Shown: piece by piece, positions 11,186-33,099 of the stretch
Layout: each line of letters starts with the position of its first letter
Position numbering within the stretch: the stretch's first letter is position 1
IMG/VR virus record: IMGVR_UViG_3300034791_000481
Span: 1 to 33,099 of that record
DNA from: a virus
DNA: 33,099 bases
Reading direction: 5' to 3' (one strand)
Notes under the pieces: generated by a model
Databases searched by the model: none
Told to the model about the DNA's origin: nothing
Seen by the model: the letters and a program-made list of their open reading frames with translations, nothing else
Translations under genes and position numbers: made by a program

Positions 11186-11761
11186 ATGACTGAAAAAATT
11201 AAACCAAAAGCTAAACCACATTATGTGAATAACAAGGAGTTTTCCCTTGCAGTTGTTGAGTATGTTCGAACAGCAAATGCTGCTAGAGAAGCTGAAGTAG
11301 AAGTACCTAAAGTTACTAATTATATTGCTACTTGTTTCATGAAAATATCTGAAGGACTGTCTCACAGACCGAACTTTGTTCGGTATACTTATCGTGAAGA
11401 AATGGTTATGGATGGTGTAGAAAACTGTTTAAGAGCAATTAATAACTATAAGATAGAAACTGCTACACGTACTGGTAATCCTAATGCATTTTCATATTTT
11501 ACTCAGATTTGTTATTTTGCTTTTATTAGGCGTATAACCAAAGAGAAGAAGCAACAAGATATTAAGTTTAAATTCATTGAAAAAATGGGTATTGAAGATT
11601 TTGCTGCTATGGGTATGGATGATTCAGGTGCTCAACAAACTATGGCATACGTAGATACATTAAGAAGCAGAATAGATCAGATCAGAACCAAAGATGCAAA
11701 GATCAAAGAGTTTGCTAAGATAGAAAAAGAAAAAGAAAAACTAGAATTATTTATGGTATAA
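11186..11761 (+). CDS. gp55: Late-transcription sigma factor (gp55)
   Basis: A 191-residue gp55-type sigma, very close to T4 (185). It replaces host sigma70 on RNA polymerase and directs it to TATAAATA late boxes with the sliding clamp as activator. The core pattern is visible: FVRYTYREEMVMDGVENCLR (sigma region 2-like helix), then NAFSYFTQICYFAFIRRITK, the aromatic segment that contacts the melted -10. The C-terminal LELFMV ends in hydrophobic residues, like the clamp-binding tail of T4 gp55. A Shine-Dalgarno (TAGGAGA) precedes the ATG. Nine TATAAATA boxes in this window are its probable targets. It leads a tight operon with gp47, the small unknown and gp46. Confidence 0.93.
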   Translation: MTEKIKPKAKPHYVNNKEFSLAVVEYVRTANAAREAEVEVPKVTNYIATCFMKISEGLSHRPNFVRYTYREEMVMDGVENCLRAINNYKIETATRTGNPNAFSYFTQICYFAFIRRITKEKKQQDIKFKFIEKMGIEDFAAMGMDDSGAQQTMAYVDTLRSRIDQIRTKDAKIKEFAKIEKEKEKLELFMV

Positions 11762-22521: not shown

Positions 22522-25038
22522 ATGAATCTAAAATTCTACACAAATATTTCAAGATATGGCAATAATCTTCTTTATAGAGGTTATTCTAACGGTAAAAAAA
22601 TACAAACAAAAATTAAGTACAAACCGACATTTTATGTCAACACTACTAATCAAACTCCATTTCAAGCTTTAGATGGAACAAAAGTTGCACCTATTAAATT
22701 TGAAGATATGCGTGAAGCTAAAGATTGGCTTGCGACAAATCAGCATACGGCTGGCAGACATATATTTGGTAACAACAAACATATTCCAGCGTATATCAAT
22801 GAGGCATTCCCTGGTAATATCAAGTTTGATCGTAACATCATTAATGTAACAACAATCGATATTGAAGTTCAATCAGATGCTGGTTTCCCTGAGCCTGAAG
22901 AAGCTGCTCATGAAGTAACCGCAATCTGTATGAAAAACAATATTGATAACACATTCTATGTCTGGGGTCTTAAAGAATATGACGTAGAAAAGACATACAT
23001 GAAAGATAATCGTGTAGTATACGAAAAGTGTATGACTGAATCAGAACTTCTATTAAAATTCATTGCACATTGGTCTTTACCATCGCAGTGTCCGGATGTA
23101 ATCACTGGGTGGAATTCAAGGTTCTTCGATATACCATACCTCGTTAATCGTATTATTAAAATCCATGGTGAAGAGTTTGTGCGTAGATTATCTCCCTGGG
23201 GTTTGATCGATCGCCGCGACGTCAATACAATGCAGCGTAAACAATGCGCATATGAAATTCAAGGTATCGCTCAAATGGATTACCTTGATCTATTTCGAAA
23301 ATTTGGTTACTCGTATGGTCCACAAGAATCATATAAGCTTGACAATATTGCTAACGTAGTACTTGGAGAACGTAAACTTTCTTATGAAGAACATGGTAAC
23401 CTCCACACTCTTTACATACATGATCATCAAAAGTTTATTGACTACAACATTAAAGACGTAGACTTAGTAGATCGTTTTGAAGATAAGATGGGTCTTATTA
23501 CACTAGCTCTTACTATGGCTTATCGTGGTGGTGTTAACTATGGCGATGTTATGGGTACTACTGCTATATGGGATTCTATTATCTTTCGCAATCTACATGC
23601 AAATAATGTCATTGTTCCATTCGGTGAAGAAAAGTTTAAATCACCATATCCAGGCGGCTTTGTAAAAGATCCTCAAGTTGGTATGCACGAATGGGTCGTT
23701 TCTTTTGATTTAAACTCACTGTATCCATCACTTATTATGCAGTATAATATGTCGCCTGAAACTATTATTAACGGTAAAGTTGCTAATGTCAATGTTGATA
23801 GTCTTCTAAGTGGTGAAGTTAAACCTAGGCTAGAAAATAATGAATGCGCTGCAGCATCAGGCCAGTATTTTGCTACTGATAATCAAGGTATCTTACCAAA
23901 AATCATTAGTGAAATGTATAGTGAACGTGTTATTATTAAACGCGCTATGATTAATGCACAGAAAGAACTTGAAAAGATAGATAAAACTAATAAGACTGAA
24001 TTGTATCGTGTTCAAAGAGATATCAGTATTGCTGAAAATCAACAAATGTCTATTAAGATTCTTCTTAACAGTTTATATGGTGCCTTAGGTAATAAGTACT
24101 TTAGATTCTTTGATCAGCGTATAGCAGAAGGTATTACACTTTCTGGACAGCTCACTATACGATGGGCTGAGAAGGCTGTGAATGATTATCTTAATGGCAT
24201 CCTTAAAACTAAGAAAGATTATGTAGTAGCAATTGATACTGATTCTGTTTATGTTGTACTAGATGATCTTGTAAAAGCTGTGAATCCTAAAAATCCATTG
24301 GAATTTCTTGACACAGTTTGTAAAGAAAAGCTTGAAGCTGTACTTGAAAAAAGCTATGCAAATCTATTTGATATTATGGGTGGCATCGAAAATCGTATGG
24401 TTATGAGTCGTGAAGCAATCGCTGATCGTGGAATATGGACTGCTAAGAAAAGATATATTCTAAATGTTCTTGATAACGAAGGTGTTAGATATGCACAGCC
24501 TAAGCTTAAGATTATGGGTATTGAAGCAATTAAGTCTTCTACACCAGCTCCATGTCGAGAAGCACTTAAACAAATGTTTAAAACGATTATTAGTGGCTCT
24601 GAATCCAAAGTTCAGCATGATATCGAAGCATTTAGAACGTACTTTAAAACTCTACCACCTGATGAAATTGCCTTTCCACGAGGTATAACTAACCTTACTA
24701 ACTATATGGATAATCAAACTATATACAAAAAAGGTACACCGATTCATGCTCGTGGCAGTATCATGTATAACAAACTACTTGTAGATAAATCGCTTACTAA
24801 GCAATATAACAAGATTCAGAATGGCGAAAAGATTAAGTTTATCTACCTTCGAACTCCTAATCATATGAAGGAAAATGTAATATCCTTCCTTGATTATCTG
24901 CCTGAAGAGTTTGGTTTACATCGCCATATTGATTATGACACTCAGTTTGAAAAAACATTCTTAGGTGTTATTGATCCAATACTTCAAGCTGTTGGCTGGA
25001 ACTCAAAAGATATAGCAACACTTGATGAATTTTTTTAA
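22522..25038 (+). CDS. gp43: DNA polymerase, family B (gp43)
   Basis: An 838-residue replicative polymerase with proofreading, somewhat shorter than T4 gp43 (898). The exonuclease domain has Exo I TIDIEV (D113, E115) and VITGWNSRFFDIPYLVNR (Exo II). The polymerase motifs are motif A SFDLNSLYPSLIMQYNMSPE (D396), motif B KILLNSLYGALGN, and motif C AIDTDSVYV (D572, D574), all intact. The C-terminus, ATLDEFF, ends in an aromatic clamp-binding peptide like that of T4. It has its own promoter, and there is only a weak Shine-Dalgarno (GGTAAT) upstream, so expression may be limited by translation, possibly by RegA as in relatives. It is not split or interrupted. Confidence 0.96.
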   Translation: MNLKFYTNISRYGNNLLYRGYSNGKKIQTKIKYKPTFYVNTTNQTPFQALDGTKVAPIKFEDMREAKDWLATNQHTAGRHIFGNNKHIPAYINEAFPGNIKFDRNIINVTTIDIEVQSDAGFPEPEEAAHEVTAICMKNNIDNTFYVWGLKEYDVEKTYMKDNRVVYEKCMTESELLLKFIAHWSLPSQCPDVITGWNSRFFDIPYLVNRIIKIHGEEFVRRLSPWGLIDRRDVNTMQRKQCAYEIQGIAQMDYLDLFRKFGYSYGPQESYKLDNIANVVLGERKLSYEEHGNLHTLYIHDHQKFIDYNIKDVDLVDRFEDKMGLITLALTMAYRGGVNYGDVMGTTAIWDSIIFRNLHANNVIVPFGEEKFKSPYPGGFVKDPQVGMHEWVVSFDLNSLYPSLIMQYNMSPETIINGKVANVNVDSLLSGEVKPRLENNECAAASGQYFATDNQGILPKIISEMYSERVIIKRAMINAQKELEKIDKTNKTELYRVQRDISIAENQQMSIKILLNSLYGALGNKYFRFFDQRIAEGITLSGQLTIRWAEKAVNDYLNGILKTKKDYVVAIDTDSVYVVLDDLVKAVNPKNPLEFLDTVCKEKLEAVLEKSYANLFDIMGGIENRMVMSREAIADRGIWTAKKRYILNVLDNEGVRYAQPKLKIMGIEAIKSSTPAPCREALKQMFKTIISGSESKVQHDIEAFRTYFKTLPPDEIAFPRGITNLTNYMDNQTIYKKGTPIHARGSIMYNKLLVDKSLTKQYNKIQNGEKIKFIYLRTPNHMKENVISFLDYLPEEFGLHRHIDYDTQFEKTFLGVIDPILQAVGWNSKDIATLDEFF

Positions 25039-27642: not shown

Positions 27643-27951
27643 ATGGCTAAATTTGACAATGGTAAATCACCTCTTGGTTTAATCCCACCAGAAGCTTTAC
27701 TTCAAATCTCTGAAGTTTTTGGCTTTGGCGCAGAAAAATATGGTATGAACAATTGGCGTGATGATGGTCATAACACTAGTTGGATACGAACTTATTCTTC
27801 AGTACAAAGACATTTAAATAAATGGCATGCCGGCGAAGATATAGATCCTGAATCTGGATATACACATTTATCTCATGCAACAACTCAAATCATGATTCTT
27901 ATGATGCACGCAATTGAACATCCCGAAGTTGACGATAGGTATGGAAAATGA
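27643..27951 (+). CDS. dATP/dGTP diphosphohydrolase family protein (DUF5664 type)
   Basis: A 102-residue protein with the signature FGFGAEKYGMNNWR near the N-terminus and IRTYSSVQRHLNKWHAGEDI, then ESGYTHLSHATTQIMILMMH, matching the N-terminal dATP/dGTP diphosphohydrolase family (formerly DUF5664) common in phages. The family belongs to the all-alpha NTP pyrophosphohydrolases, and relatives act in phage purine pool control. The Shine-Dalgarno AAAGGAC precedes the ATG, and the promoter inside the preceding gene drives it. It overlaps the dCMP hydroxymethylase-like gene by ATGA, tying it to deoxynucleotide metabolism. Exact substrate is not proven. Confidence 0.82.
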   Translation: MAKFDNGKSPLGLIPPEALLQISEVFGFGAEKYGMNNWRDDGHNTSWIRTYSSVQRHLNKWHAGEDIDPESGYTHLSHATTQIMILMMHAIEHPEVDDRYGK

Positions 27952-28607
27952 ATACAACTATAGATAATATACGAGGCTTATTTAAAGCTAGGCTTTTAAA
28001 TGATATGTTTACCGAAGATAGAAATGGTGGTAAAACTATTGAGTTGATTGGTGCATCATTTGTTGCTGATCGACCTGCTATTTTTGGAACTCCTAATCAG
28101 GAATATATTGATGTAGAACTAGATTGGTATCATAGTCAATCTACAAATATTAATGACATTTATCGTAATGACCGTGAGCCACCGGCTGCATGGATAATGA
28201 CTGCCAATGATCATGGAGAAATCAATTCTAACTATGGTCATTTAATTTTTGGTGAAAAGTATTATAATCAGTTTGATCAGTGCGTTATGGAATTAACAAG
28301 AAATCCAGATTCTCGTAGAGCTTCAATGATATATACACGCCCTTCTATTTGGATGGAGTATAATGAAAATGGTAAGAATGATTTTATTTGTACTAACGCA
28401 GTCACATATTATATTCGAGATGATAAACTAAGTTGTGTAGTACAAATGCGCTCTAATGATGTAATCTTTGGCTATCGTAATGACTATGCTTGGCAAGAAC
28501 ATGTTCTTGGCGAATTGGCCGATGAACTAAGATGTGATACAGGTGAAATTCACTGGCAAGTTCAAAACTTACATGTTTATGAACGCCACTTTGATTTGGT
28601 GAAATAA
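27948..28607 (+). CDS. dCMP hydroxymethylase-like protein (thymidylate synthase fold, gp42 type)
   Basis: A 219-residue member of the thymidylate synthase superfamily. Conserved parts are VELDWYHSQSTNINDI, NSNYGHLIFG, NPDSRR (phosphate-binding arginines), the nucleophile in FICTNAV (C148), VQMRSNDVIFGYRND and NLHVYERHF. In thymidylate synthase the base-reading residue in GxPFNIA is Asn; here the aligned residue in GYRNDYA is Asp (D179). T4 dCMP hydroxymethylase also uses Cys148 and Asp179, the same numbers. This favours conversion of dCMP to 5-hydroxymethyl-dCMP over dTMP synthesis. It is shorter than T4 gp42 (246). The dCMP deaminase gene follows by one base. Confidence 0.78.
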   Translation: MNTTIDNIRGLFKARLLNDMFTEDRNGGKTIELIGASFVADRPAIFGTPNQEYIDVELDWYHSQSTNINDIYRNDREPPAAWIMTANDHGEINSNYGHLIFGEKYYNQFDQCVMELTRNPDSRRASMIYTRPSIWMEYNENGKNDFICTNAVTYYIRDDKLSCVVQMRSNDVIFGYRNDYAWQEHVLGELADELRCDTGEIHWQVQNLHVYERHFDLVK

Positions 28608-28608
28608 T

Positions 28609-29073
28609 ATGAGTTGGGAATCAGCAAAAAGTTACAAATGGGACAAGAGATTTATAGCTTTAGCTCAACATATAGCATTGTGGTCTAAAGATCCATCACG
28701 AAAAATTGGAGCAATCGCAGTAGGATCTAAAGGTCAAGTTTTAGCTCAAGGATATAACGGATTTCCTCGAGGAATATCTGACGATGTATCAATGTATAAT
28801 AATAAAATTACTAAATATCAACACGTTGTACATGCTGAAATGAATTGCATTTATAATGCTACATACAATGGAACATCACTTGATAATTCAACACTATATA
28901 TACATGGTCTTCCAGTTTGTTCTGAATGCGCTAAAGGTATTATACAAGTTGGAGTTAAAAGAGTAGTAACAAAGGAGATCGATGATTCAATGCCAGAAAG
29001 ATGGATTGAATCGACTGCACTAACTAAGAAAATGTTTGATGAAGCTGGTATTGTATACGACTTTATCGATTAA
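28609..29073 (+). CDS. cd: Deoxycytidylate (dCMP) deaminase
   Basis: A 154-residue zinc deaminase, shorter than T4 Cd (193). Zinc ligands and the catalytic glutamate are clear: HAE (H75, E77) in YQHVVHAEMNCIYNA and PVCSEC (C104, C107). The N-terminal WSKDPSRKIGAIAV and GYNGFPRGISDD are dCMP-deaminase hallmarks. It converts dCMP to dUMP, the precursor of dTMP, and competes with the upstream hydroxymethylase-like enzyme for dCMP, as in T4. It starts right after that gene's stop, so it is in the same operon. A tRNA gene follows five bases after the stop. Confidence 0.93.
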   Translation: MSWESAKSYKWDKRFIALAQHIALWSKDPSRKIGAIAVGSKGQVLAQGYNGFPRGISDDVSMYNNKITKYQHVVHAEMNCIYNATYNGTSLDNSTLYIHGLPVCSECAKGIIQVGVKRVVTKEIDDSMPERWIESTALTKKMFDEAGIVYDFID

Positions 29074-29078
29074 ATGAA

Positions 29079-29155
29079 GCGTCCTTAGCTCAGCTGGATA
29101 GAGCAACGGCCTTCTAAGCCGTAGGTCGGAGGTTCGAATCCTCCAGGACGCACCA
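29079..29155 (+). tRNA. tRNA-Arg (anticodon TCT)
   Basis: A complete cloverleaf. The acceptor stem GCGTCCT pairs with AGGACGC, the D-arm is AGCTCAGCTGGATAGAGC, the anticodon stem CGGCC/GGCC-type arm has loop CTTCTAA with anticodon TCT (29113-29115), and the T-arm is GGAGGTTCGAATCCTCC. The 3' ACCA is encoded. It reads AGA, a codon used heavily in this AT-rich phage. It is the only tRNA in the window. Confidence 0.96.
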
Positions 29156-29404: not shown

Positions 29405-29605
29405 ATGGCTACTAAGAATGACATTACTGGTGATAGTATACAGTCTAAGGCTTTATCTAAACAGGGTAGAGATAACTGGGATACTATATTTGGTAAAAAA
29501 AATCCAGTTAAGAAGAACATGGACAAACTCCATAAGCCTTCTACACATGCTGATAAGACAAAATATCAGCGCAAAAATAAACATAAGATAACAGATGATG
29601 AATAG
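29405..29605 (+). CDS. Small conserved phage protein (ITGDxIxSK type), unknown role
   Basis: A 66-residue protein if started at 29405 (MATKNDITGDSIQSKALSKQ). Earlier in-frame starts lie within the preceding gene. The opening NDITGDSIQSK, followed by RDNWDTIFGKK, is a pattern common to small phage proteins of unknown function, in which a lysine-rich tail follows. The protein is very basic overall (KKNPVKKNMDKLHKPSTHAD), suggesting nucleic acid binding or a disordered chain. Its stop overlaps the next start region by 11 bases. Confidence 0.72.
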   Translation: MATKNDITGDSIQSKALSKQGRDNWDTIFGKKNPVKKNMDKLHKPSTHADKTKYQRKNKHKITDDE

Positions 29606-29903
29606 TATTATGGCAGACTTTGATCCAAAAGAATTAAAGAACAGTAAAAGAATTTTTAAGAGTGCTACTCCTAAGTATACTTTAGATTGGTATATTAAAT
29701 GGGTAGCTTCTATATTTGTACTTAGTGCAATGTCTCTAAGAGGCATTGACGGATTGCAAATGTTTGATTTAGGATTATCTGCAATAGGCATTATGCTATG
29801 GTTGTGGGTTTCTATTATATGGAAGGATCGTGCACTGATTCTTTTAAATGGAGTTGGACTAATGTTCTTAATTAAGAATTTGGTCACAACTATTTACACT
29901 TAA
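29595..29903 (+). CDS. Three-helix membrane protein, unknown
   Basis: A 102-residue protein with a charged, soluble N-terminus (MADFDPKELKNSKRIFKSA) followed by three hydrophobic segments: WYIKWVASIFVLSAMSL (about 48-64), LGLSAIGIMLWLWVSIIW and ILLNGVGLMFLIKNLV. The pattern IKW-x-A-x5-SAMSLRG then D-LGLS-IG-x-LWLWVSIIWKDRA resembles small inner-membrane proteins found in marine phages and bacteria. An internal ATG at 29610 is an alternative start; neither has a strong Shine-Dalgarno. Its stop lies in the palindrome upstream of the inositol operon. Confidence 0.68.
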   Translation: MMNSIMADFDPKELKNSKRIFKSATPKYTLDWYIKWVASIFVLSAMSLRGIDGLQMFDLGLSAIGIMLWLWVSIIWKDRALILLNGVGLMFLIKNLVTTIYT

Positions 29904-30001: not shown

Positions 30002-31282
30002 ATGTCTAAAATTAATATCGCAATCGCCGGCGTCGGCAACTGTTCATCAGCACTCGTTCAGGGTGTTCAATACTATAACGAAAATCCAGAAGATACAATT
30101 GGTCTAATGTTTGAAGACATTGGTGGATATTCATCTCCAAACTTTAACTTTGTAGTTGGCTTTGATGTTGATTCACGTAAAGTTGGTCAACGATTAAATA
30201 AAGCAATCTATGCTAAACCAAATTGTAACATGGAAGTATTTCCTCCAGGTCATGATATGAGCTGTATTGCTAACGAGTCTACTGTGTATAGATCACCAAC
30301 ACTTGATGGCATTGCACCACACATGCATGATTTAGATGAGAACATTTCGTTTTTAGAAGATACAGAAACAACTCCAATCTCAGCAGCTAAATACCGTGAG
30401 ATTCTTAAAAATCGTAAAGTTGATGTTTTACTTAATTATATGCCAGTAGGTTCAGAAGAAGCAGCAAGATGGCATATTGAAAATGCTATTCGAGCTGGAG
30501 TGCATATTGTTAATTGCATGCCAACTTATATTTCTACTAAAGATGCTATGGAATTAGAAGAACTTGCTATTGAAAATGGTGTAACAATCGTTGGTTCTGA
30601 TATGCGTTCTGATTATGGAGCATCACGTTTATCTGAAGTTCTTCAAGGGTCTATTATGGATTCTGGTTTATTAGTAACTCAGCACATTCAAGAAAATAAA
30701 GCTTGTGGAGCAACTCAAGGCGATATGCGTAGAACAGGTCGTACTGCTAATACTGATTTCTTAAATATGGCTACTAAAGATCGCTTAAAGAATAAGCATA
30801 TCTCTAAAGAAAACGTATTGAATGGTCAAGCAGTTGTACGTGGTAAAGATATTGCTGGCCTTACAATGTATGCAGGGCCATCACTTACAGTTTTCCAAAA
30901 ACCAGGCGATAAGTATATTGGTTCTGATAACAAGATTGCTAACATTGATATGGTATTCTGGGGTTGGGCAGGAGCACGTTATGAACTTACTGCTCGTTTA
31001 TCTGTTCAAGATTCTCCAAATAGTGCTGGTATTGTTTATGATGCTATTAGATTCTGTAAAGTTGCTTCTGAAATGGGTCTTGTTGGTTACCTTCGTGGTC
31101 CATCAGCATGGTCTCAAAAGACTCCACCACAACAGCTTAAAACTGCAGATGCTAAGTTCGAATGCGATGCTTTAGCTCGTAGAGTTTTGACTGATATTAC
31201 ACGCCCTCAACTTAAAGAAAATAAGCCAAAAGTTGAAGACTTAACTTATACATTCCAATCAGGTGAAAATGACTATGCCTAA
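30002..31282 (+). CDS. Myo-inositol-1-phosphate synthase family protein
   Basis: A 426-residue protein of the myo-inositol-1-phosphate synthase (Ino1) family, closest in form to the short bacterial and archaeal enzymes (about 360-400). The enzyme isomerises glucose-6-phosphate to inositol-1-phosphate with bound NAD. Seen: N-terminal Rossmann motif IAIAGVGNCSSALVQG (10-16), GFDVDSRKVG, LLNYMPVGSEEA, VGSDMRSDYGA, NTDFLNM (250-256), DSPNSAGIVYDAIRF (337 on) and GPSAWSQKTPPQQL near the C-terminus. These are the conserved catalytic-domain segments. Shine-Dalgarno AAAGGAG is good. Downstream genes overlap, indicating an operon. In a phage this is an unusual metabolic gene; the end use is unknown. 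Confidence 0.9.
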   Translation: MSKINIAIAGVGNCSSALVQGVQYYNENPEDTIGLMFEDIGGYSSPNFNFVVGFDVDSRKVGQRLNKAIYAKPNCNMEVFPPGHDMSCIANESTVYRSPTLDGIAPHMHDLDENISFLEDTETTPISAAKYREILKNRKVDVLLNYMPVGSEEAARWHIENAIRAGVHIVNCMPTYISTKDAMELEELAIENGVTIVGSDMRSDYGASRLSEVLQGSIMDSGLLVTQHIQENKACGATQGDMRRTGRTANTDFLNMATKDRLKNKHISKENVLNGQAVVRGKDIAGLTMYAGPSLTVFQKPGDKYIGSDNKIANIDMVFWGWAGARYELTARLSVQDSPNSAGIVYDAIRFCKVASEMGLVGYLRGPSAWSQKTPPQQLKTADAKFECDALARRVLTDITRPQLKENKPKVEDLTYTFQSGENDYA

Positions 31283-31655
31283 AATTAACACATTTGATAT
31301 TGATGGTGTAATTTATTTTGGTGAAGATTTTACAGGAGTTAGGCCTTGTGAAGAAGATATTATCATCACGGGCCGCTCCTTTGAGCAAAGAGAAGAAACT
31401 ACCGAAATGTTACATTCTAGAGGCATATATAATAGAGTGCTTATGAATCCATTAACACGAGAAGATTCTAGATATTCTCGTTTATCGTCTGGATATCATA
31501 AGGCTCAAACAATTTGGGATTTAAAAGAAAAAGGATACGAAATAGGATTACACTTTGAAGATGATCCTATTCAAATAGAGGCTATTAGAGAAGCACATCC
31601 CAATTTACAAATTATACATATGATAAGAGAAGGTGAAGATTTAATTGGCTACTAA
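31275..31655 (+). CDS. HAD-superfamily phosphatase-like protein
   Basis: A 126-residue protein. The ATG at 31275 is taken because AGGTGA lies 8 bases upstream; ATG at 31269 and GTG at 31263 are alternatives. HAD motifs are in order: motif I FDIDGVI (D8, D10), motif II ITGRS (T32), a lysine in YHKAQTIWDLK (K76), and motif IV HFEDDP (D96, D97). The small size means there is no separate cap domain. It probably hydrolyses a phosphate ester, and inositol-1-phosphate from the upstream synthase is an attractive substrate, but that is inference. It overlaps the synthase by 8 bases and the next gene by 11. Confidence 0.8.
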   Translation: MPKINTFDIDGVIYFGEDFTGVRPCEEDIIITGRSFEQREETTEMLHSRGIYNRVLMNPLTREDSRYSRLSSGYHKAQTIWDLKEKGYEIGLHFEDDPIQIEAIREAHPNLQIIHMIREGEDLIGY

Positions 31656-32703
31656 TTTATGGAAATATGTTGATCAAAGCGTAGCAGATGATATATCTTA
31701 TTTTTGGAAGCGTGTTATTGAAGGCTTTGATTACCGTGCAGGATTGACTGACTTCTTTAATGGTGCTGATCCAGCTATACAATGGAACACAGAATACTTT
31801 GGCCCCAATGTAACTATGGATGATCGATTACGATATATAGCAGAAAATATATCAACAAACAAAAATATATCAGATGTAAATCGTGCACTTAACTTTGTAA
31901 TTACTCACTTTTATGGAGGTAGAGACTGCCATAGAGTTCTTAACGCAGAATTAGACCCTAAGAAAGCGTATACAGATTTTGAACGAGCATTAATTGATCC
32001 AGAATATGTAGGTCAGATTAAATCTAATTTAGATAGAGCTAGATCTCTTGGATATTCTATTTGGTCTAGGACTGAGTTACATACATCTTTAATGGGTGCA
32101 TCAAATAAATATGCTAAACAGGAATTTGGATTTGATACTCATTCTGTTAATATGATTGCATGGCTAGCAGGTTGGATTAAAGATGGAACGGTTGATAAGA
32201 TACTTAATGCTAAAACTTTAAAAGAGTGCGCTGGTGTATTACTTTCTAAAGAAGGTATTGGTCCTTACTACGGATATCATGGAGCAACTGACCAATCGAC
32301 TAATCCATCTATGGCATTTACTCATGATGAACCATTTGTTTTACCTGGACCAGGATGTCAACACACGCTTAAAATGTTATTTCCAACTCTAACTAATAAA
32401 GAATGTTCGCCTGGAAATCAGGTTGTTTGGGTTAGAGAAAATCAAGAAAAGTTATTTGGTAAAATGCATTTTAATGATTATTGGCATAATATTAAAGTAG
32501 ATGGTATTGATGTATATTCATTTGCTCAAAACGAATTAACATGTTATACTGCAGAAGTTGCGTTATGCCAGTATGGAGTATATTGTGATATGCAACAAAA
32601 TCCATCTAGAATTGAAAAAAGACAAATAGCAAAGGTTGATGTCACTTCAATCGTAGAAAGTTTACAAACAGAACCATCCTCTATAGAAGAATTTTTTCTA
32701 TGA
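31645..32703 (+). CDS. Helix-hairpin-helix-type protein, possible base-hypermodification enzyme
   Basis: A 352-residue protein with a TTG start (AGGTGAA seven bases upstream; no in-frame ATG before about residue 58). The C-terminal region EGIGPYYGYHGATD (204-216) followed after a loop by LPGPGCQHTLKMLFP (234 on) follows the layout of the helix-hairpin-helix, DNA-glycosylase-like fold: a GIG-x-Y turn, then D, then a GPG turn. This layout recalls the alpha-glutamyl/putrescinyl-thymine pyrophosphorylase family, which attaches groups to hydroxymethyl-pyrimidines in hypermodified phage DNA. The N-terminal half (residues 15-170) is helical and does not show that family's usual PWT motif. The match is suggestive only. 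Confidence 0.4.
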   Translation: MATNLWKYVDQSVADDISYFWKRVIEGFDYRAGLTDFFNGADPAIQWNTEYFGPNVTMDDRLRYIAENISTNKNISDVNRALNFVITHFYGGRDCHRVLNAELDPKKAYTDFERALIDPEYVGQIKSNLDRARSLGYSIWSRTELHTSLMGASNKYAKQEFGFDTHSVNMIAWLAGWIKDGTVDKILNAKTLKECAGVLLSKEGIGPYYGYHGATDQSTNPSMAFTHDEPFVLPGPGCQHTLKMLFPTLTNKECSPGNQVVWVRENQEKLFGKMHFNDYWHNIKVDGIDVYSFAQNELTCYTAEVALCQYGVYCDMQQNPSRIEKRQIAKVDVTSIVESLQTEPSSIEEFFL

Positions 32704-33099
32704 AAAACATATTGAATTGTCCATTTATTCCTGTAGCTAAACGAGCAGCTTCTCATAGAGGAGCTCAAGGTGTTATATATGGAGATGAAGTAAAGCAAAA
32801 GTACGGTAATTGCGATGTTAATTACGGTGGGCAAATAGAAGACCATAATGAATATGATAATCTTTGGGTATATCATGGAAGCGATTTTAGTGGTGGTCTT
32901 AATATGTTTGGTGGTGTTTATGGGTTTCCGTATGTAAAGAACACAGTAAACTTTTCTAAGTTTAAAGGCCAAGTATACTCCATTGGAATTGATTTTCCAG
33001 AGTATCACACTATGATAAAAGATAAATTAGCATCAGCCAAAAAAGAAGTACAACCAGAATGGAATGATGTAGATTTAGTAAATCTTGAAAGAATGTATA
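32700..33099 (+). CDS. Unknown protein, 3' end outside window
   Basis: Open from an ATG at 32700, which overlaps the preceding stop (ATGA), to the window end; 133 codons are visible. It begins MKNILNCPFIPVAKRAASHR and has alternating short strands and glycine-rich turns: DNLWVYHGSDFSGGLNMFGG, then VNFSKFKGQVYSIGIDFPEY. A strand, then GG turn, then strand order is compatible with an N-terminal Rossmann-like domain such as in GT-B glycosyltransferases, but this is a guess from pattern. Because it is the fourth gene of the inositol operon, its identity is central to the pathway; the remainder of the gene is needed. Confidence 0.65.
   Translation, partial: MKNILNCPFIPVAKRAASHRGAQGVIYGDEVKQKYGNCDVNYGGQIEDHNEYDNLWVYHGSDFSGGLNMFGGVYGFPYVKNTVNFSKFKGQVYSIGIDFPEYHTMIKDKLASAKKEVQPEWNDVDLVNLERMY

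Follow-up and report, generated by a model that had tools for sequence, protein, structure and literature searches.

The window analysed here is the whole 33,099-nucleotide IMG/VR virus record IMGVR_UViG_3300034791_000481, a fragment of a T4-like phage whose open reading frames (ORFs) include T4-like tail sheath, portal, polymerase, and gp55 genes, and its 3′ end carries a compact operon with a predicted role in DNA hypermodification. The four overlapping ORFs that an initial annotation had described there were all located on the plus strand where it had placed them. The first (30002..31282) encodes a protein of the myo-inositol-1-phosphate synthase (MIPS) family, the second (31263..31655) a small capless HAD phosphatase that starts at GTG 31263 or ATG 31275, the third (31645..32703, TTG start) a candidate helical DNA-base transferase of the helix-hairpin-helix (HhH) type, designated g3, and the fourth (32700..33099, ATG start) the first 133 codons of g4, a protein with a predicted SGNH/GDSL fold. 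Successive frames overlap by 8, 11, and 4 bases, as first reported, with the first overlap becoming 20 bases if the HAD phosphatase begins at the GTG codon. Relatives are equally compact, their commonest gaps being −20 between MIPS and HAD, −14 or −11 between HAD and g3, and −4 between g3 and g4, and the frames are regarded as real genes because many independent contigs contain homologues of each.

The record is 33 kb in total, so the operon is truncated at the window end and was completed from relatives, in which the unfinished fourth gene encodes a protein of 316-402 aa. A search of IMG/VR with MIPS returned 122 related stretches, of which 80 were retained, and independent searches returned at least 592 relatives when seeded with g4 and 281 when seeded with g3, reaching deeply diverged phages. 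Carriers of the cassette are widespread marine and freshwater bacterial viruses, and one MIPS match is a 360-kb jumbo phage. The usual order in close relatives is dCMP hydroxymethylase, dCMP deaminase, MIPS, HAD, g3, g4 (∼330 aa), and a further gene of ∼400 aa, designated g5, which usually follows g4 and was missed initially because it lies beyond the window end.

The assignment of the first gene to MIPS is upheld by matches to TIGR03450 (E = 4.6e-58), to Mycobacterium tuberculosis Ino1 in the PDB (1gr0, 1e-48), and to PF01658, where its 30.9 bits pass the cut-off of 27; its 197 bits against TIGR03450 fall under the 638-bit equivalog cut-off, and it is hence not classed as a mycothiol equivalog. 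Among phage MIPS homologues, the glycine of the NAD-binding motif is invariant (119/119), as are the four family lysines and the aspartate of the DSPN motif (119/119), residues that we take to be catalytic. The second gene retains the HAD motifs DxD, T-R, K, and EDD, each kept in 111-120 of 120 relatives, in keeping with the phosphatase proposed for it. Sequence searches of the PDB with the HAD protein and with g4 gave nothing useful.

The hydroxymethylase-like gene noted 1.4 kb upstream of the operon was found to occupy 27948..28607 on the plus strand and is predicted to supply 5-hydroxymethyl-dCMP, its best PDB match being the T4 dCMP hydroxymethylase (gp42 type; 1b49, E = 2.2e-68). Aligned to 1b49, the window protein retains the aspartate that specifies dCMP (RSNDVIFGYRNDYAW) and likewise the catalytic cysteine. 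Across the aligned family (n = 138), the dCMP-specifying position is aspartate in 136 members and the cysteine is kept in 137; the two rows without aspartate are a second thymidylate synthase (TS)-family protein of Aeromonas phage 44RR, a thymidylate synthase by its asparagine, and one misaligned row. Because aspartate at this position separates dCMP from dUMP enzymes, the base modified is most likely cytosine rather than thymine, as judged from these residues. The adjoining gene (28609..29073, plus strand) encodes a dCMP deaminase (PF00383, 3.6e-19, and synteny), the usual neighbour of the hydroxymethylase, which would support the nucleotide pool.

The initial annotation had seen in g3 an HhH layout reminiscent of base-hypermodification enzymes, and both profile and structure comparisons bear this out. 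Against Pfam, g3 matches PF18723 (HMUDK_hel, "5-hmdU DNA kinase, helical domain") at 3.5e-15, over the cut-off, and the same family is matched by 15/15 diverse g3 relatives. The profile check for an unrelated family thus returned the hydroxymethyl-pyrimidine transferase superfamily. An AlphaFold2 model of g3 (pLDDT 89.6) has as its top three PDB matches in Foldseek chains of PUGT (8z2n/8z2m; best probability 0.99, E = 0.012), which is gp46 of phage PaMx11, a glycinyltransferase for 5-phosphomethyl-dU in DNA, with many OGG1-type HhH glycosylases ranking below it. The predicted fold is consistent with a transferase that flips bases and acts on hydroxymethyl-pyrimidines in DNA, and its linkage to MIPS makes g3 a candidate transferase of inositol to 5-hydroxymethylcytosine (hmC) in DNA.

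To assess this linkage, 48 non-redundant viral loci were compared in which at least 3 kb of sequence flanks MIPS on either side. The recurrence of the gene order in phages that had been anticipated was confirmed, with g3 and g4 present in 48/48 loci, HAD in 46/48, a hydroxymethylase nearby in 41/48, and MIPS in 22/22 of the g3-seeded set, counts that are not independent events, many of the loci being related. Gene order differs by group (MIPS-HAD-g3-g4 or g4-MIPS-HAD-g3), and the linkage has therefore survived rearrangement. Seven loci lack a nearby hydroxymethylase. In L180 and L186, a close homologue (47-54% identity) lies farther away on the same record; L081 and L185 offer only distant homologues of the TS family, and the other three, all on short records, gave no match. 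The dependence on a hydroxymethylase that the initial annotation implied thus holds among long-record loci with MIPS, g3, and g4, none of which was found to be without a homologue, two having only the distant ones.

A further line of evidence comes from the C-terminal tails of these proteins. In T4, gp43, gp55, and gp33 carry similar hydrophobic and acidic C-terminal peptides that bind the sliding clamp gp45 (PMC2988020), and the T4 α-glucosyltransferase also interacts with gp45 (PMC6024577). Among plus-strand ORFs longer than 60 aa in the window, clamp-like endings occur only in the DNA polymerase gp43 (22522..25038, plus strand), whose tail ...ATLDEFF (motif TLDEFF) served as the reference for clamp-binding peptides in this phage, in the late sigma factor gp55 homologue (11186..11761, plus strand), whose tail ...KLELFMV was the second reference, and in g3 (SSIEEFFL); complete relatives of g4 end in TLEEFF. 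Over all loci, the motif is found in g5 (69/81), g4 (99/132), g3 (96/129), and DNA polymerase (53/66), and elsewhere in 0/136 MIPS, 0/122 HAD, 0/107 TS, and 6/1085 other ORFs, a rate of 74-85% for g3, g4, and g5 versus 0.6% for other ORFs. The tails also covary within single phages: the jumbo phage has SLLSF in its polymerase, SLLEF in g3, TLLSF in g4, and SLLSF in a glycosyltransferase, and another phage has SLEDFFG in its polymerase, VENFFS in g4, and LSSFFD in g3. Caulobacter phage Cr30 pairs DLSSLFD in the polymerase with DLSKLF in an hmC-glucosyltransferase-like gene, and Stenotrophomonas phage Mendera pairs SLEDLFG with SLDDLFG in a 404-aa neighbour of MIPS. In one locus (L201), whose polymerase lies outside the sequence part covered, g3 and g4 have the tail SGPTLF in common.

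The distribution of these tails therefore splits the operon into putatively DNA-acting g3, g4, and g5 on one side and small-molecule enzymes, MIPS, HAD, and hydroxymethylase, on the other. The likeness of the tails to that of the same phage's polymerase argues that g3, g4, and g5 act on DNA and marks them as predicted clamp ligands. Of the purposes first suggested for the inositol, decoration of a DNA base is consequently favoured, and a role in lipid, capsid, or solute is made less likely. That inositol serves as an osmolyte, as a precursor of lipids, or to decorate the capsid, roles of a kind generally known from cells, with g3, g4, and g5 as incidental neighbours, appears very improbable, since the core is conserved with its DNA-acting partners across divergent phages and a phosphatidylinositol-synthase gene was not recognised in the inspected cassettes. 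The tails also bear on the proposal that the HAD protein, instead of cleaving inositol phosphate, is a DNA 3′-phosphatase or works on a phosphorylated base. Its best PHROG match, PHROG 415 (7e-11), corresponds to the phosphatase portion of T4 polynucleotide kinase and speaks for such an activity, which we nevertheless hold to be improbable, as HAD lacks the clamp-like tail throughout, is paired with MIPS in Cr30 and Mendera as well, and was not found in 44RR and Aeromonas phage phiAS4, phages with g4 but without MIPS.

The fold of g4 was assigned from an AlphaFold2 model of a relative (L006:12706-13692; pLDDT 85.4), for which Foldseek returned SGNH hydrolases (2hsj, E = 1.5e-5), the best matches including O-acetylesterases and PAF-acetylhydrolases. 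The serine (in the block I motif GDSH), aspartate, and histidine (C-terminal, block V) of g4 are invariant (122/122). The catalytic aspartate of the SGNH DxxH motif is absent, position −3 being K, Q, H, R, G, or S, and the activity of g4 may therefore differ from hydrolysis. Identity with the T4 β-glucosyltransferase was considered and rejected (PF09198, E = 0.02, 15 bits against a cut-off of 27, 3/13 members), as was a GT-B fold, the T4 β-glucosyltransferase being absent among the 50 listed Foldseek matches. Across 84,980 genomes, g4 had 14 matches, the eight inspected being phage-like contigs, and it looks confined to phages.

The g5 protein matches the C-5 cytosine DNA methylase family (PF00145, 2.2e-15). 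Compared with what we take to be the canonical motifs of C5-methyltransferases, its Pro-Cys, Glu-Asn, and QxRxR motifs are kept in 77-78 of 78 sequences, and the catalytic cysteine and glutamate and both arginines in 78/78. Motifs I-II for S-adenosylmethionine (SAM), conversely, are not recognisable: motif I reads PL[IV]GG (P, G, and G in 78/78), motif II has Y, F, or W in place of its acidic residue, and database matches start near motif IV, past the SAM-binding part. Identity as a plain methyltransferase was set aside because the SAM motifs are missing. Homologues of g5 also occur in cyanophage S-TIM5 (L086:7977-9194), annotated as hypothetical or DNA methylase in a region with a thymidylate synthase-like gene, and in Pseudoalteromonas phage XG4 (L088:100-6580), where a cassette without MIPS, g3, or g4 comprises a hydroxymethylase, a HAD-like gene, a nucleotidyltransferase-kinase fusion, two glycosyltransferase-like genes, and the g5 homologue.

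Taken together, the operon probably directs phage DNA hypermodification in which hmC is decorated with a cyclitol, most likely myo-inositol, as an ether, a reading drawn from gene families, conserved residues, and predicted structures. The gp42-type hydroxymethylase, judged by homology and active-site residues, would make hm-dCMP that enters DNA as hmC. MIPS would convert glucose-6-phosphate to inositol-3-phosphate, from which HAD would remove the phosphate, and g3, as suggested by its fold and superfamily, could link hmC in DNA, at its hydroxymethyl carbon, to a hydroxyl of inositol. The g5 protein, which keeps the C6-attacking cysteine, glutamate, and arginine and lacks the usual SAM motifs, could activate hmC, and g4 could either do likewise or attach or remove an acyl group; g4 and g5 alike would act on DNA irrespective of the moiety. 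Tethered to the sliding clamp, g3, g4, and g5 may decorate DNA during synthesis, as reported for the T4 α-glucosyltransferase, and the likely purpose would be to shield the genome against host nucleases that cut DNA containing cytosine or hmC. The inositol-linked modified cytosine that the initial annotation put forward is thus favoured in the steps open to checking, with the attachment of inositol to the base itself still conditional.

Several observations weigh against this reading, besides the relatedness of the loci counted above. In MIPS, the lysine of the DDxKS motif is replaced by arginine in 112/119 phage sequences, most of them have an insertion of ∼15 residues close to the active-site GGN loop, and PDB relatives include a synthase of a five-membered cyclitol phosphate (6k96), so that the cyclitol could differ. 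The profile search of the PDB with g3 gave no sequence-level match to PUGT; the similarity is structural, with a modest Foldseek E-value. The g5 gene is missing near some loci, and Cr30 and Mendera, when searched, had MIPS-HAD, there beside other DNA-modification genes, but no T4-type dCMP hydroxymethylase, g3, or g4. Finally, neither a kinase nor a nucleotidyltransferase that might activate hmC or inositol is recognisable in the cassette, and the activation role is therefore assigned to g4 or g5 by elimination.

For that activation, we tentatively propose a kinase-free route in which g5, derived from a C5-methyltransferase and no longer binding SAM, would use its cysteine to attack C6 of hmC and expel water to give an exocyclic 5-methylene, to which g3 or g5 would add the inositol hydroxyl, or an amino-acid-type nucleophile in sister cassettes. 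Engineered M.SssI reportedly couples thiols to hmC (PMC7176277), and a C5-methyltransferase scaffold can therefore in principle join nucleophiles to this base.

The active-site differences in MIPS also bear on a related alternative, in which the same DNA-modification operon uses another cyclitol, or inositol that is O-methylated, acylated, or phosphorylated before or after attachment. This is rather unlikely, though with points in its favour: the MIPS family includes the five-membered-cyclitol synthase, the loop insertion sits at the active site of most phage MIPS, the g4 fold resembles O-acyl esterases, and FkbM-type methyltransferase genes, which could yield O-methyl-inositol, are inserted in many cassettes beside HAD, g3, or g4 (L014, L017, L020, L029, L051, L072, and L078). 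Another cyclitol is opposed by the four lysines and the aspartate of true MIPS, invariant in 119/119, and by the best PDB match, which is the inositol-3-phosphate synthase at 169 versus 96 bits; an altered inositol is opposed by the absence of FkbM from the visible part of the window cassette.

The place of MIPS-HAD in the proposed hmC decoration is further illuminated by relatives in which this module is exchanged. In relatives with g4 and without MIPS, a PALP/threonine-dehydratase-like enzyme, a putative ADDT-like transferase (labelled so by eye, as Pfam gave no match), and an unknown protein of 400 aa replace MIPS-HAD-g3. The PALP module thus stands in for MIPS-HAD beside the hydroxymethylase, and MIPS-HAD accordingly occupies the slot of a moiety-making enzyme; g4, being present in cassettes of both kinds, would have a role independent of inositol. 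The MIPS-less hmC cassettes (L141, L143, L145, L155, L157, L265, and L266) run in the order dCMP hydroxymethylase, 400-aa unknown, PALP/threonine-dehydratase-like enzyme, usually the ADDT-like transferase, and g4 (often followed by g5), which suggests amino-acid-linked hmC. In phiAS4-type Aeromonas phages, g4 comes after a gene for UDP-galactopyranose mutase and one for a putative glycosyltransferase, and in phiAS4 itself (L089:2763-6047) the three consecutive genes hint at galactofuranose decoration of hmC. In Cr30, MIPS-HAD stands beside an amino acid:DNA transferase (PF18724) and the hmC-glucosyltransferase-like gene. In Mendera (L082:8098-13624), MIPS-HAD lies amid GTP cyclohydrolase, QueC-like, and QueE-like 7-deazaguanine genes and the 404-aa unknown.

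Gene 42 is present in Aeromonas phages 44RR, 31, and 25, which lack glucosyltransferase genes, and the protection of their hmC was unexplained in 2010 (PMC2993671). A single protein of 795 aa (ORF233c in 44RR) combines g4 and g3 in 44RR, 31, and relatives, and in Aeromonas phage 44RR2.8t (L084:4408-8388), a sodium:solute symporter of the SGLT (glucose/galactose) branch directly precedes the fusion. The 44RR g3 domain is sister to one MIPS-linked g3 with 100/100 support and 48% identity. As a guess, import by the symporter, whose substrate is not readable from sequence, could replace inositol synthesis in 44RR. These phages and Mendera bear on the possibility that g3, g4, and g5 modify DNA while MIPS-HAD inositol serves elsewhere, as solute, lipid, or signal. 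The different neighbourhood of MIPS-HAD in Mendera (QueC/QueE/GCH1) and the g4-g3 fusion without MIPS in Aeromonas phages are compatible with such a separation, to which we give a low probability in view of the MIPS-g3 linkage (48/48 and 22/22) and of the nesting of 44RR g3 with a MIPS-linked g3 (100/100), where the adjoining sugar/inositol-branch symporter could replace MIPS.

Two further features lie between the dCMP deaminase gene and MIPS in the window. A tRNA-Arg (TCT) gene (29079-29155) is found immediately 3′ of the deaminase gene, and a small DUF6552 protein (29595-29903) is retained in many close relatives.

Parts of the proposed system resemble known ones. We know of no part for MIPS, g3, or g4 in the arabinosyl-hmC system of phage RB69, whose decoration, unlike that proposed here, is a pentose; the likeness lies in a gp42-positive T4-like phage without T4 glucosyltransferases and with another hmC decoration (PMC6024577, PMC2993671). 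T4 hmC glucosylation shares the gp42-type hydroxymethylase, post-replicative decoration of hmC, and clamp interaction (α-glucosyltransferase, PMC6024577), whereas the window operon has no UDP-glucose transferase and would employ a PUGT-like transferase with free inositol. Thymidine hypermodification, with a 5-hmdU DNA kinase and transferases such as PUGT (gp46 of PaMx11, 8z2n), shares the domain family and a similar predicted fold with g3, but here cytosine would be the base, a cyclitol would take the place of the amino acid or amine, and a kinase of the hmdU type is not recognisable in the cassette. Phage MIPS shares its sequence family and catalytic lysines with actinobacterial MIPS (Ino1, TIGR03450, 1gr0), which has a mycothiol or lipid role, whereas the phage enzymes mostly carry the active-site loop insertion and lie in a DNA-modification operon. 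Similarly, g5 shares its Pro-Cys, Glu-Asn, and QxRxR motifs with C5-cytosine methyltransferases (PF00145; M.HhaI, M.HaeIII, and DNMT1), from which it differs in its unrecognisable SAM motifs I-II and in homology that begins near motif IV. For inositol in phage DNA, nothing relevant was found in the open-access literature searched, which did not cover a 2013 computational survey of base modifications, and the novelty is provisional.

Inositol-ether hmdC and glucosyl-hmdC are isomers (C16H25N3O10, calculated mass about 419.15), and mass alone therefore cannot distinguish them; hmC adducts called glucosyl-hmC from mass alone may merit re-examination. The clamp-like tails offer an annotation rule, in that a C-terminal tail matching that of a phage's own polymerase flags DNA-acting enzymes among unknown genes. 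Should the kinase-free route prove true, it would represent a natural counterpart to the artificial M.SssI coupling to hmC and a new logic of DNA hypermodification, and the cyclitol ether in DNA would be stable to acid and glycosidase. If hmC is decorated with inositol as proposed, a cyclitol would join the natural chemistry of DNA as a new means of phage-genome protection, which would offer a possible answer to how the hmC of Aeromonas phages 44RR, 31, and 25 is protected, with candidate genes named in cultured phages.

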